Below, piece by piece: positions 50,969-56,622 of a DNA stretch of 64,000 bases (its first letter is position 1; each line of letters begins with the position of its first letter). Location of the stretch: the NCBI GenBank assembly GCA_001885315.1, contig MLPZ01000001.1:124001-188000 (forward strand). Reading direction: 5' to 3'. Under the pieces are notes generated by a model. The model had not been told where the DNA came from and did not search any database. It worked only from the letters and a program-made list of their open reading frames with translations. Made by a program: the position numbers and the translations under genes. Source of the stretch: Treponema sp. CETP13 (GTDB lineage Bacteria > Spirochaetota > Spirochaetia > Treponematales > Treponemataceae).

Positions 50969-52804
50969 ATGAAGTCCACAAATATTCAAAAGAATTTATT
51001 TACCTCTTTGTTTACTACAATAGTTTTTGCTTTATGTGTGGTTAACTTATTTATCTCTTGTGCTTCGTCGAAAGAGATTGTAGAAGATAAACAGGCAAAA
51101 GGAACTCTTACGATAGATGATGATTCAGATAATTCACTAGATTTTCAAAACAATGAAAGTACTTTAAAAGGGATTAATCATGCATCTAGTAGGGCAGATT
51201 CTTTTTTTTATTTTTCTGATAATCAGATAATGGAAAATGCTGTTATTGGGACTCCTGAACATTTAAAAAAAACAATATCCCTTTTATATAAAAGTGATCA
51301 GAATTATTCAGAACAAGAGAAAGTTTTAATTTCAATTTGCATAAAAATAATGCAAGAAGTTTGGCCAGAATCGCAAATATCGTGGAAAATCCCAGACGAA
51401 TTACCAGAGAACTTGTATCTTGATACTCTGAATTCTTCTTTTTCTGGTATATATGAACCTGTAAAAACTACGGAAGATTTTTTCTCATTACTTTTGCCTT
51501 CGTTAACTCTTTTTACATTAACTCCTGTTGATCAATATGCAGAAAATTCAGAAGCAGCTTTAAAAGAAGCTTTAAGGTTACAACCAGATTCAATTTTAGC
51601 AACTTATATGCTTGGAATTTTGTATTTGAAAACTGATAGAAGTGATAAAGCTATTCCCTTGTTACAAAAGGCTGCGAGTGCTGTCCCTTCTTCGGATAAT
51701 ATATCAAAGGCTTTAATCACTGCTTTTGGGAAGAATATAAAATCAACAACTTCCTATGATGAGGCAAAAGCAATTCTTGCTACTAATCCAGAAAATAAAG
51801 AATACTTAATTTTATTAGCACAAATAGCTTATGATTTGGAAGATTATCAAAATGCTGAAGTATATATTGCAAAAGTTTTACAACAAGAGCCAAGCAATAA
51901 AGAATATTTAATGTTACGAGCAAAAATACTTTTTAAAGAAGAAAAGTATTTGCAAGTTTCTACAATACTTGATGTGTTTTCAAGAAGTAATTATATTACG
52001 CGTGATTATTTGCTGTTGCGTGCCCAGTTGCAAATAGAGTGGAATAAAAATAGTACTGCTGCTATTGCGACTCTAGAAAAAGCTTTAGAACAATATAAAA
52101 ATGATATTGAAGTTTTAACTTTAGCTGCTAAATTAGCTTCGACAACTTCACAGAAAATTAATGGTCAAACAGCAATGGAAATTGCTCAAAATTTACTAAA
52201 AGATGATTCTTCTAATATAAACGCCTTGGTTGTAATAGTAGATGAAAACATAAAAAACAAAGACTGGCAAAGTGCATACTTGAACAGTAATAAAACTTTA
52301 AAATTATCTCCTTCTGATGTAAATGTGTATTTGAATCACGTAGAAATTTGTATTGAACTAAATAAAATAAGCGAAGCTAGAGATATAATTGACATGGTAA
52401 ATGAAAAATATTTTTCTAACAATAACAATACTGTTTCGAAAAAGAATTTGGAATCTTTTCAAAAATGGAATCTACGTGTATTACGTGCTGAATCAAAAAA
52501 TTCTCAAGTACAAAAATTGATAGATATATATATGAAAGATGCATCTTCTGATTTAAAAAGCATACTCTATTATGAGAAAAGTTTTATAGAAAATTCTGCA
52601 GCAATGCAACTTTCTGATTTACGATTAAGCCTTACTTCGAATCCTCGCAATACTGATTCTCTTTATGCTTTATATGAATACTATTTTGAAAAATCTGATT
52701 ATCAAAAAGCTCGCTATTATTTACGACAAGTAATAGCTTTGAAACCTTCTGATCTAGATTTGTTAGACAAAAATACACAACTAGACACGTTGCTTTCCCA
52801 ATAG
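50969..52804 (+). CDS. large TPR lipoprotein
   Basis: Lipoprotein signal with hydrophobic FTSLFTTIVFALCVVNLFISC, lipobox LFISC (Cys about residue 31). The mature part is an array of tetratricopeptide repeats: EAALKEALRLQPDSILATYMLGILYLKTDRSDKAIPLLQKA, YQNAEVYIAKVLQQEPSNKEYLMLRAKILFKEEKYLQ, SDYQKARYYLRQVIALKPSDLDLL. A scaffold in the periplasm or outer leaflet is likely. ATG 50969 is favoured over ATG 50921, which would place the start upstream of the promoter. Divergent from the minus-strand envelope operon. Confidence 0.75.
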   Translation: MKSTNIQKNLFTSLFTTIVFALCVVNLFISCASSKEIVEDKQAKGTLTIDDDSDNSLDFQNNESTLKGINHASSRADSFFYFSDNQIMENAVIGTPEHLKKTISLLYKSDQNYSEQEKVLISICIKIMQEVWPESQISWKIPDELPENLYLDTLNSSFSGIYEPVKTTEDFFSLLLPSLTLFTLTPVDQYAENSEAALKEALRLQPDSILATYMLGILYLKTDRSDKAIPLLQKAASAVPSSDNISKALITAFGKNIKSTTSYDEAKAILATNPENKEYLILLAQIAYDLEDYQNAEVYIAKVLQQEPSNKEYLMLRAKILFKEEKYLQVSTILDVFSRSNYITRDYLLLRAQLQIEWNKNSTAAIATLEKALEQYKNDIEVLTLAAKLASTTSQKINGQTAMEIAQNLLKDDSSNINALVVIVDENIKNKDWQSAYLNSNKTLKLSPSDVNVYLNHVEICIELNKISEARDIIDMVNEKYFSNNNNTVSKKNLESFQKWNLRVLRAESKNSQVQKLIDIYMKDASSDLKSILYYEKSFIENSAAMQLSDLRLSLTSNPRNTDSLYALYEYYFEKSDYQKARYYLRQVIALKPSDLDLLDKNTQLDTLLSQ

Positions 52805-52842
52805 CTAGTTTTGCTTATAAGTATTTATTCAGTAATTTCAGG

Positions 52843-52869
52843 TTGACTAAAATTAAACACTGTGATAAT
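52843..52869 (+). promoter_or_regulatory. putative promoter of the leuA leader
   Basis: TTGACT (52843-52848) and extended -10 TGTGATAAT (52861-52869), 15-base spacer. Start would fall within a few bases of the leader-peptide ATG at 52879. Confidence 0.5.
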
Positions 52870-52878
52870 CTCAAATCA

Positions 52879-52947
52879 ATGAAATATTTAACACAGCTAC
52901 TACTACTATCAAATTTATACTCAATTTGCCGTATATGTGCTGTGTGA
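52879..52947 (+). CDS. leuL: leucine leader peptide for leuA attenuation
   Basis: A 22-codon ORF with four consecutive CTA leucine codons (52897-52908) after MKYLTQ, plus two TTA leucine codons. CTA is a poor codon in this AT-rich genome compared with TTA. The stop TGA at 52945 lies 20 bases before the terminator stem. ACACAGC (52891-52897) can pair with GCTGTGT (52939-52945), placing the Leu codons in the loop of a pause hairpin, as in classic leader attenuators. No Shine-Dalgarno is visible. Confidence 0.75.
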   Translation: MKYLTQLLLLSNLYSICRICAV

Positions 52948-52966
52948 CTTAATGAATTTAAAATTC

Positions 52967-53003
52967 AAAGCCTGTTGCCATTACGGTGACAGGCTTTTTT
53001 TTT
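52967..53003 (+). terminator. leuA attenuator terminator
   Basis: AAAGCCTGT (52967-52975) pairs with ACAGGCTTT (52989-52997), extended inward by two wobble and two GC pairs around the loop ATTAC, followed by a run of T to 53003. It lies 50 bases before the leuA start, so it must be overcome for expression. Confidence 0.92.
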
Positions 53004-53053
53004 ATAATTTATATTTATTATAATTAACTAAAAAATTTTTTAAGGAGTTATTA

Positions 53054-54754
53054 ATGGCAAAGTATGTACCGTTTGGAAAAATTAACATTCAGAATCGAGA
53101 ATGGCCGGATAAAGTGATCGAGAAAGCACCTTTGTGGGTCTCTGTTGATTTACGTGATGGGAATCAATCTCTCCCAAAGCCAATGGGAGTTGAACAAAAA
53201 CTCGAATTTTTTGATTTATTAGTTGCAACTGGCTTTAAAGAAATTGAAGTTGGATTTCCTTCTGCATCAGAAACGGAGTATACCTTTTTACGACGACTTA
53301 TAGAAGAAAAACGTATACCAGATGATGTTACAATTCAAGTACTTTGCCAAGCACGTGAAAAACTAGTAAAAAAAACTTTTGAATGTTTACAAGGATGCAA
53401 AAAAGCTATCTTTCATATATACAATTCAACCAGTCCTGCTCAACGTAAATATACTTTTAATATGACAAAAGAAGAAATTATAAAAGTTGCTGTAGATGGT
53501 GTTGAATGTGTAAAAAAAGCTATGTCTTCATTAAAAGGAACCGACTTACGGCTTGAGTATTCTCCAGAAAGTTTTTCTAGTACAGAAATTGAATATGCTG
53601 TTGAAATATGCAATGCTGTCGAGGCCGCGTGGAATCCAACTCCTGAAAATAAAATAATTTTTAATCTTCCAACGACAATTGAATGTGCAACTCCAAATAT
53701 TCATGCAGACCAAATTGAATATTTTTGTAAACATATTAATAATCGAGATAGTGTTATTGTTTCTTTGCATAATCACAATGATCGGGGAACTGGTGTTGCA
53801 TGTGCAGAGCTTGCTCTACTGGCTGGTGCAGAACGTGTAGAAGGTACTTTGTTTGGTAATGGAGAAAGAACCGGAAACTTAGATATTATTACTACAGCCA
53901 TGAATATGTATGTTCAAGGGGTTGACCCTAAACTTGATTTTTCTAATCTTCCTTCTCTTACAGATGCTTATAAGCGATTAACAGATATGCCTGTTAATCC
54001 TCGACATCCTTATGTTGGAGAACTTGTTTTTACCGCTTTTAGTGGCAGTCATCAAGATGCTATAAGAAAAGGCATGAAAGCACGAAAAGAAATGATGAAA
54101 CAAGCACAAAAAAATGGTAGTAAAGATCCTAATAATGATGTTACCTGGGATGTACCATATTTACCTTTAGATCCTCATGATGTAGGGCGCGAATACGAAG
54201 AAATTATTAGGGTAAATAGTCAAAGTGGTAAAGGTGGTGCCGCTTGGATTCTTGAAGAAAATTATGGCATTTTCTGTCCTAAAGCTATGCACCCAGTTCT
54301 TGGAGAAGTTGTTACAGCAGAAGCTGATCACTTACAACGTGAATTAACAGCAGCCGAAATTTATTCTATTTTTAATAAACAGTGGATGTTAAAGAAAGAA
54401 CCTCTTTCTTTGCTTGATCTTGCAGAAACTCATGTTGAAGGGCCTGCTGACAATGAAAGTGTACTTTGTAGAACTTCTGTAAGCTTTAAAGGTAAAACAT
54501 ATAATTTAGGAGCAAAGGGTAATGGTCCTTTAGCCGCCTTTGTAGCAGCGTTACGTACTAGTGATATGCAATTACCTTCTTTTAGCATTACATCTTTTCA
54601 TGAGCACAGCATTGGTACAGGTTCTGATACCGATGCTATGGGATATGTAGAACTTACTTTCGAAACTGGTAAAAAGGTATGGGGAGCAGGAAGAAGTTCT
54701 AATGTAGGTCGTGCAGGTATTAATGCTGTTATAAGCGCAATAAATCAATTGTAG
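53054..54754 (+). CDS. leuA: 2-isopropylmalate synthase
   Basis: First committed step of leucine synthesis: acetyl-CoA plus 2-oxoisovalerate. WVSVDLRDGNQSLPKPM with the catalytic Arg-Asp, GFKEIEVGFPSASETEY, metal-binding HNHNDRGTG, and GNGERTGNLDI. The C-terminal regulatory domain ends with SSNVGRAGINAVISAINQL. Length 566 fits the longer (type 2) LeuA group rather than the short E. coli-type. Start ATG 53054 follows AAGGAG. Controlled by the leader above; other leu genes are not in the window. Confidence 0.96.
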   Translation: MAKYVPFGKINIQNREWPDKVIEKAPLWVSVDLRDGNQSLPKPMGVEQKLEFFDLLVATGFKEIEVGFPSASETEYTFLRRLIEEKRIPDDVTIQVLCQAREKLVKKTFECLQGCKKAIFHIYNSTSPAQRKYTFNMTKEEIIKVAVDGVECVKKAMSSLKGTDLRLEYSPESFSSTEIEYAVEICNAVEAAWNPTPENKIIFNLPTTIECATPNIHADQIEYFCKHINNRDSVIVSLHNHNDRGTGVACAELALLAGAERVEGTLFGNGERTGNLDIITTAMNMYVQGVDPKLDFSNLPSLTDAYKRLTDMPVNPRHPYVGELVFTAFSGSHQDAIRKGMKARKEMMKQAQKNGSKDPNNDVTWDVPYLPLDPHDVGREYEEIIRVNSQSGKGGAAWILEENYGIFCPKAMHPVLGEVVTAEADHLQRELTAAEIYSIFNKQWMLKKEPLSLLDLAETHVEGPADNESVLCRTSVSFKGKTYNLGAKGNGPLAAFVAALRTSDMQLPSFSITSFHEHSIGTGSDTDAMGYVELTFETGKKVWGAGRSSNVGRAGINAVISAINQL

Positions 54755-54755
54755 T

Positions 54756-54793
54756 AAAAAAAACCACCTGACTCAAAGGAGAAAGTCAGGTGG
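54756..54793 (-). terminator. minus-strand terminator-like hairpin downstream of leuA
   Basis: CCACCTGACT (54764-54773) pairs perfectly with AGTCAGGTGG (54784-54793). The A-run at 54756-54763 becomes a T-run on the minus strand, so the hairpin terminates leftward transcription. No T-run follows on the plus strand, and no minus-strand gene is visible to its right before glt genes on the plus strand. Confidence 0.65.
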
Positions 54794-54892
54794 CAAGGAG
54801 AGGAGGAATTGAATATTAGGTTCTTCTTACTTAATAATTACATAATAATAACCACTGTATAATCTAAAGGTTACATATTATTTAAATTATTT

Positions 54893-55002: not shown

Positions 55003-56622
55003 ATGAGTGAAGTAAGAGTTCGCTATGCGCCATCACCAACAGGGATGCAGCATATTGGTGGTGTTAGAACCGCATTATTTAATTATTTATTTGCACGAGC
55101 AAATGGTGGTAAATTTATTTTACGTCTTGAAGATACAGACCGTACTCGTTACGGAGAAGAATACGTTCAAAATTTATACGATACACTAGATTGGTTACAT
55201 ATAGAATGGGATGAGGGCGGTCCAAAGGGTGGTGAATTTGGCCCTTATGTTCAAAGTGAACGTTTTGACTTATATAAAGAATATGCCCAAAAATTAATTG
55301 AAAAAGGTGAAGCTTATTACTGTTTTTGTGATTCAGAAAGATTAAATCGTATTCGACTAATTCAGCAAAAAAACAAGATGCCTCCTGGATATGATAGAAA
55401 CTGTCGACATTTAACACCAGAAGAGGTTCAAGAAAATTTAGACAAAGGTATTCCTCATGTCATACGTTTAAAAGTTCCACTAGAAGGTGTTACAAAATTT
55501 AGGGATGCTTTACTAGGTGATATTGAATGGAAGAATGAAGATATTTCTCCAGACCCTATTTTACTTAAATCTGATGGGTTTCCTACATATCATTTAGCAA
55601 ACATTATTGATGATCATTTTATGAAGATTACTCATGTTATGCGTGCACAAGAATGGATTCCAAGTACTCCATTGCATGTCCAGTTGTATCGTGCTTTTGG
55701 ATGGGAACCACCTGTGTTTTGTCATCTTCCTATGGTAAATGGTAATGATGGACACAAACTTAGCAAAAGACATGGGGCAACTTCTGTAAACGAGTTTAGA
55801 GCGCGAGGATATATTCCAGAAGCTTTAATTAACTATGTTGGTATGCTTGGCTGTTCTTACGAAGATGGGCGTGATATGTATACCCTTAGTGATATGGAAA
55901 AGTTATTTAAAATTGAGCATATGAATAAAGCAGGTGCTGTATTTGATTATAAAAAACTTGAGTGGTTTAATGGTCAATATATGCGTAATTTTACAGATGC
56001 ACAACTTGTTGACAATGTTTTGCCATTCATTACAGGAACAGGTAGTGCAGCAATTCCTATAAACGCTAGTGATACGTTTCCTGCTCCAAAAGTAGGACCA
56101 GAATGGTCAGGCATTGCATATGTCGATAACGATCCTAAAACGGGGAAACTTGTACTTGCAGATCAAAGCATGAGAAAAATTGTATGTGGTGATGAGAATG
56201 CTGACACAAATGTACAAGATAAGGCAATTCGAGAAAAATTACTGGAAGTAGCGCCCCTTATAAAAGAGCGACTGCATTTTTTAACAGATGCAGCAGAAAT
56301 GGTAAGTTTTTTATTTAAAACAGTAAAAATACCTTCTGTAGAACAAATAATTCCTAAACGTCTTGATAAAGAAAAAACAAAAGAAGTTTTAGAGCAAGCA
56401 ATAAAATACATAGAAGCAATGCCTGCATTGGATCATGAAGGTCAAGAACAACTTGCTCGTGATACTTCTAAGGAGATGGGAATTAAAATGGGTGATTTTA
56501 TGATGCCTATTAGATGGGCAGTTACCGGTTCTCGAGTTTCTCCTCCACTTATGGGTTCGATTATGATTTTAGGAACAGATATTGCTATAAATAGAGTAAA
56601 CGCTGCTCTAGCAGAATTTTAG
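55003..56622 (+). CDS. gltX: glutamate--tRNA ligase
   Basis: Class I synthetase. HIGH-like motif RYAPSPTGMQHIGGVRTALFNYLFAR, LRLEDTDRTR, and KMSKS-like HKLSKRHGATSV. 539 residues, longer than the usual 470-490, mainly through an insertion of about 45 residues around position 350 (ITGTGSAAIPINASDTFPAPKVGPEWSG). Whether it also charges tRNA-Gln cannot be told. Start has TAGGAG 7 bases upstream. Confidence 0.96.
   Translation: MSEVRVRYAPSPTGMQHIGGVRTALFNYLFARANGGKFILRLEDTDRTRYGEEYVQNLYDTLDWLHIEWDEGGPKGGEFGPYVQSERFDLYKEYAQKLIEKGEAYYCFCDSERLNRIRLIQQKNKMPPGYDRNCRHLTPEEVQENLDKGIPHVIRLKVPLEGVTKFRDALLGDIEWKNEDISPDPILLKSDGFPTYHLANIIDDHFMKITHVMRAQEWIPSTPLHVQLYRAFGWEPPVFCHLPMVNGNDGHKLSKRHGATSVNEFRARGYIPEALINYVGMLGCSYEDGRDMYTLSDMEKLFKIEHMNKAGAVFDYKKLEWFNGQYMRNFTDAQLVDNVLPFITGTGSAAIPINASDTFPAPKVGPEWSGIAYVDNDPKTGKLVLADQSMRKIVCGDENADTNVQDKAIREKLLEVAPLIKERLHFLTDAAEMVSFLFKTVKIPSVEQIIPKRLDKEKTKEVLEQAIKYIEAMPALDHEGQEQLARDTSKEMGIKMGDFMMPIRWAVTGSRVSPPLMGSIMILGTDIAINRVNAALAEF

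Follow-up and report, generated by a model that had tools for sequence, protein, structure and literature searches.

Why does a strong intrinsic terminator stand between a short, leucine-rich open reading frame (ORF) and leuA in a spirochaete? We addressed this question in Treponema sp. CETP13, using a 64,000-nt stretch of one contig (hereafter the window; positions are those of the window, and features lie on its plus strand unless stated otherwise). A preliminary description had read the locus as a leucine leader-peptide attenuator, and that reading gained support from a conserved Leu leader, a covarying antiterminator and an in silico switch. Our analysis indicates that the locus is very probably a classical ribosome-mediated transcription attenuator, sensing charged leucyl-tRNA and controlling leuA.

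The presumed regulated gene, leuA (53054–54754), encodes a 566-aa 2-isopropylmalate synthase type 2 that scores above the cut-offs of TIGR00970 (718.7 bits) and NF002991 and far under that of TIGR00973 (leuA_bact). The gene is present in a single copy in the genome and, as the TIGR00970 assignment indicates, its product makes leucine, the amino acid that would be sensed, as an attenuator requires. A plus-strand gene for a TPR protein lies upstream (stop near 52804, 162 nt ahead of the terminator), and gltX (55003) and then glyS lie downstream. Since an inverted repeat (54764–54794) directly follows leuA and gltX starts only at 55003, leuA may be monocistronic; as a terminator, the repeat itself was predicted solely on the minus strand.

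The leader-peptide ORF (52879–52947), which has equivalents in relatives and is predicted to be leaderless, comprises 22 codons encoding MKYLTQLLLLSNLYSICRICAV and a stop (ATG AAA TAT TTA ACA CAG CTA CTA CTA CTA TCA AAT TTA TAC TCA ATT TGC CGT ATA TGT GCT GTG TGA). Its four consecutive CTA codons (52897–52908) are the putative leucine control codons: CTA accounts for 64% of the codons in the Leu runs of the leader family and for 9.9% of Leu codons across the long ORFs of the window. The intrinsic terminator (52967–52997), a 13-bp stem with a 5-nt loop followed by T6, lies between the leader ORF and leuA, where an attenuator needs it. The preliminary description had thus been right in the coordinates and counts of a 22-codon ORF with four CTA codons before a strong terminator; the gap from stop codon to stem is 19 nt. 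Among 5000 dinucleotide shuffles of 52805–53053, an ATG-initiated ORF with at least four consecutive Leu codons arose 70 times, a comparable terminator once and the two jointly never; within the reach of such shuffles, a chance origin of the window's ORF and terminator is excluded. The 171-nt leader also folds with unusual stability (z −3.7, with equally stable structures in 0/200 shuffles).

Conservation of this arrangement was assessed across the order, where 142 of 394 genomes proved to carry leuA and upstream sequence was obtained for 138. A direct scan for an ATG-initiated ORF with a Leu run and a terminator recovered leaders in 91 of these 138 upstream regions, and a covariance model (R1) built from 55 leaders added 11 more, such as those of the CTA CTA TAT type, for a total of 102/138. 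Leu-rich leaders were also seen by eye in two more genomes, of another family (L212, L213). At 36 of the 138 leuA genes, including the closest leuA (L003, 75% identity), neither the scan nor R1 found a leader. The preliminary description had named a lack of conserved Leu codons in relatives as grounds for abandoning its reading; with leaders in 102 of the 138 regions, these grounds fall away. Across 100 leaders, 91 of them pre-selected for a Leu run, 90 departures from CTACTACTA within the run fell at codon positions 3, 1 and 2 in 63, 19 and 8 cases, respectively. Because these changes are mostly of the synonymous type, translation, and not RNA sequence alone, is favoured as the conserved property; the short ORF, whose translation is predicted, carries a run that is conserved as Leu in relatives, as expected of an attenuator.

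Within the genome, the window leader was the only strong R1 match (further matches had E values of 0.24 or more), and two other matches that we inspected, one at a solute-binding-protein-like gene and one at a glutamate-dehydrogenase-like gene, look like chance. No terminator was found upstream of the two ilvB and two leuC-like loci of the same genome, and across the phylum R1 gave weak matches only (E ~0.006) outside the family. One genome (G384) has a further Leu leader of nearly the same kind, also with a terminator (L259:422-541), ~1.8 kb upstream of its leuA leader; it precedes genes for an aminotransferase-like and a nucleotidyltransferase-like protein.

A clear antiterminator pairing had been missed by eye in the preliminary description, but it exists and covaries across species. 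One arm, region 2 (GCCGUAUAUGUGC; 52928–52940), sits at the end of the ORF, and its partner, region 3 (GCCAUUACGGU; 52977–52987), consists of the upper 5′ arm of the terminator, the loop and the first bases of the 3′ arm. In the window this duplex (−12.3 kcal/mol) joins 52928–52933 with 52982–52987, 52935–52937 with 52979–52981 and 52939–52940 with 52977–52978, leaving two bulges. The hairpin around the Leu codons that had been proposed earlier is likewise predicted: region 1 (ACACAGC; 52891–52897) forms the 5′ arm of a 1:2 hairpin whose 3′ arm (GCUGUGU; 52939–52945) overlaps region 2, with a probability of 0.98 in the ribosome-free leader.

Both structures of the proposed switch covary. The terminator stem does so in 9 of 11 pairs (55 species). 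For the antiterminator, a swap test duplexed each species' post-Leu segment with the terminator loop of that species and with those of all the others, with no register assumed (56 non-redundant species; 84-leader set). Own pairs reached −11.9 versus −9.2 kcal/mol for swapped ones (z −9.4; 0/2000 permutations), an advantage of 2.6 kcal/mol after row and column correction, and the controls gave z −0.6 (the stretch preceding the Leu run) and z −1.4 (60 nt upstream). In a sequence-only alignment (A1), the five-pair antiterminator core (GCCGA with UCGGC) contained 31 doubly changed cells versus 12.7 when shuffled (0/500), and sliding its register by 1–3 columns lowered the covariation. Another register, setting the arm against the whole terminator, was dropped; the nascent-RNA fold reproduces the loop-centred one.

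Folding of the nascent RNA depended on the position of the ribosome. In ribosome-free window RNA the 1:2 hairpin prevailed and the terminator began to form by 52987–52990, whereas a ribosome stalled at the CTA codons gave an antiterminator probability of 0.95–0.97 at these same nascent ends. This probability was ~0.00 when no ribosome was present and when the ribosome stood at the stop codon; in the latter case the terminator was the only structure formed. By 52993 the terminator was thermodynamically preferred in every state, the stalled one included. Since full-length thermodynamics favours the terminator even under stalling, antitermination would have to be kinetic, with the antiterminator forming first and then persisting. 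Escherichia coli leuL, an attenuator of established function put through the same calculation, displayed the same switching pattern and the same full-length thermodynamic limit.

The preliminary description had suggested comparative folding in other treponemes with leuA, and in relatives the switch pattern recurs: at least six antiterminator pairs formed in 91/91 leaders with a stalled ribosome versus 6/91 with the ribosome at the stop codon. Real leaders formed a mean of 14.3 antiterminator pairs, shuffled leaders 6.9. Without a ribosome the antiterminator was still present in 65 of the 91 leaders, so superattenuation, although evident in the window, does not extend clearly to every relative. 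The antiterminator arm starts a median of 22 nt past the last Leu codon and 8 nt ahead of the stop codon; it is free in 85/86 leaders with the ribosome at the Leu codons and lies under the ribosome in 79/86 with the ribosome at the stop. Pairing, covariation, spacing and folds thus describe, in silico, the mutually exclusive antiterminator, available only on stalling, that attenuation calls for.

A putative promoter precedes the leader, with a −35 element TTGACT (52843–52848; TTGAC(A) at the same place in most relatives) and an extended −10 element TGTGATAAT (52861–52869, including GATAAT at 52864–52869) that is the top-scoring −10 candidate. Its spacer is a suboptimal 15 nt and its −10 box ends 9 nt before the ATG; the usual layout in relatives is TTGACA, ~17 nt, TATAAT, 6 or 7 nt, ATG. 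Promoters with at least 8 of 12 matches and a spacer of 16–18 nt occurred in 71/91 leaders versus 8.5 with shuffled upstream sequence, and the gap from −10 to ATG was 6–7 nt in 60 of these 71. Shine-Dalgarno-like motifs preceded the leader ATG in 10/91 cases and leuA in 82/91. Transcription usually starts 6–8 nt past the −10 box; given a −10 box 6–7 nt from the ATG, a leaderless leader ORF is predicted as a lineage-wide feature. In the window, where the −10 box ends 9 nt before the ATG, this promoter spacing places the start within ~0–4 nt of the ATG, and we infer an expected 5′ untranslated region of that length.

These elements suggest the following course of events. Transcription would start on the leader ATG or only a few bases away from it, and the ribosome would load onto what is in effect a leaderless 5′ end, as the promoter spacing implies. 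When charged Leu-tRNA is plentiful, the ribosome would pass the four rare CTA codons, reach the TGA and cover 52928–52940, so that the terminator would form and leuA would not be transcribed. When Leu-tRNA is short, the ribosome would instead wait at the CTA codons, breaking the 1:2 hairpin and freeing 52928–52940, which could then capture the emerging upper 5′ arm and loop of the terminator; the terminator would come too late and polymerase would enter leuA. Without translation, the 1:2 hairpin would hide the antiterminator arm and the terminator would form. Sequence comparison shows the ORF, its Leu codons, the terminator, the covarying antiterminator pairing and the spacing; the start site, translation of the leader, ribosome stalling and the kinetic advantage of the antiterminator are inferred.

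Beyond these elements, most leaders share the motif TTCTC, found within 36 nt past the Leu run in 70/91 leaders versus 3.9 expected and occurring in all three frames. It lies at +34 of the predicted transcript, ~7 nt beyond the Leu run and separated by 12 nt from the antiterminator arm that follows (as in L118, L133 and L161), and the window has ATACTC at a comparable place; a search by eye found no pairing partner for it. In four treponemes (L262, L268, L316 and L317), tyrS is directly preceded by a Tyr-codon leader ORF (MKHIVRWAQKINSSTLAYLYYS...) and its terminator. Two of them, L262 (G264:C104:8997-9114) and L268 (G332:C8:26839-26955), also carry TTCTC, and L268 has an antiterminator-like pairing of CTGCGGAA with TTCCGCA. 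These putative tyrS leaders are of the same architecture with another amino acid, and they are not general, with none found in 28 tyrS genes scanned. We offer only tentatively, and as a rather doubtful proposal, that the leaders of treponemes represent a separate class of leaderless attenuators, where TTCTC (~+34) would be a dedicated signal, such as a polymerase pause, synchronising RNA polymerase with the ribosome on a bare 5′ end, with the same design, using Tyr codons, before some tyrS genes.

Three other explanations of the locus were considered. The terminator could merely end the TPR-protein gene, with the Leu-rich ORF a chance ORF in the gap: an intrinsic terminator behind a gene is ordinary, and this plus-strand gene does end 162 nt earlier. 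However, a promoter stands between that gene and the terminator, ~100 species share the ORF, Leu run and antiterminator before leuA, with covariation, and ORF plus terminator were matched in 0/5000 shuffles, leaving this explanation with very little credibility. It seems just as improbable that the terminator is governed by a metabolite riboswitch or a leucine-tRNA T-box, with the ORF there only incidentally: although a T-box-like motif (AGGGTGG) lies upstream of the same LeuA type in Bacillota relatives, no Rfam family matched the window at its gathering threshold, no T-box match appeared around the leader even at E up to 5, and substitutions in the Leu run track codon degeneracy.

A translated Leu leader might also regulate leuA mainly by means other than termination, through stalling that protects the RNA or through a peptide or terminated short RNA that acts in trans. 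Leader peptides and terminated leaders that act in trans are known for trpL of Sinorhizobium meliloti (PMC7298713), and the full-length thermodynamic preference for the terminator would fit such a scheme. Yet the antiterminator covaries and sits where attenuation needs it, and conservation outside the Leu run is that of RNA elements (TTCTC in three frames) and not of a peptide; we consider this explanation unlikely, and attenuation by termination remains our preferred reading.

The author of the preliminary description knew of no such system in Treponema, and we also found no precedent for a spirochaete leucine attenuator in the open-licence literature searched. The Rfam model of the enterobacterial leader (RF00512, Leu_leader; gathering 50 bits) gave no match to the window at the gathering threshold or at E up to 5, while the E. 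coli control scored 145.8 bits. Because of these results, and because S. meliloti already offers an example of a leaderless leader ORF, we regard the mechanism as known and the lineage as new, with two lineage traits, the predicted leaderless start and the TTCTC motif. It would extend ribosome-mediated amino-acid attenuation to a spirochaete lineage, through a covarying RNA family absent from Rfam. If the leader ORF is indeed leaderless, ribosome and polymerase would have to be synchronised without a 5′ untranslated region, a problem for which TTCTC offers a concrete handle.

Among known systems, the predicted leaderless start resembles that of S. meliloti trpL, whose attenuated RNA starts with the leader ORF ATG (PMC7298713), but trpL has Trp codons, belongs to another phylum and is unrelated in sequence. 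The actinobacterial LEU element likewise places a Leu-codon leader ORF before leuA; it is a pseudoknot that uses the leuA Shine-Dalgarno sequence, and its experimental behaviour is not that of classical attenuation (PMC1262725). The treponemal leader, by contrast, has a covarying terminator and antiterminator. Sphingopyxis has short Leu-codon ORFs (e.g., MRGNALLLLRLTRPWA) ~110–160 nt before leuA of the same type that resemble the treponemal leaders, but these lack a T-run terminator (by scan) and an R1 match, and are possibly another kind of leader control. A conserved ORF M..ALLLLRLTRPWA recurs in Sphingopyxis and near relatives (L059-L068, L072-L073, L077-L081, L083-L084, L086, L099 and L103).

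The closest likeness is to enterobacterial leuL (RF00512), which also has four consecutive CTA codons in a short ORF, a 2:3 pairing that competes with the terminator and a position upstream of leuA. The rare codon use of the treponemal leaders parallels that of E. coli leuL, for which codon-sensitivity theory singled out CUA as the best-suited control codon (PMC1183508), and R1 scored 34 bits against E. coli leuL (E 0.0032 in 426 kb). The two differ in that the treponemal ORF is predicted to be leaderless whereas E. coli leuL lies, judging from its sequence, well downstream of its own promoter, and in that the treponemal system has a leuA of the TIGR00970 type and a leader family with TTCTC. 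The similar layout of the treponemal leader and E. coli leuL looks like convergence or ancient retention.
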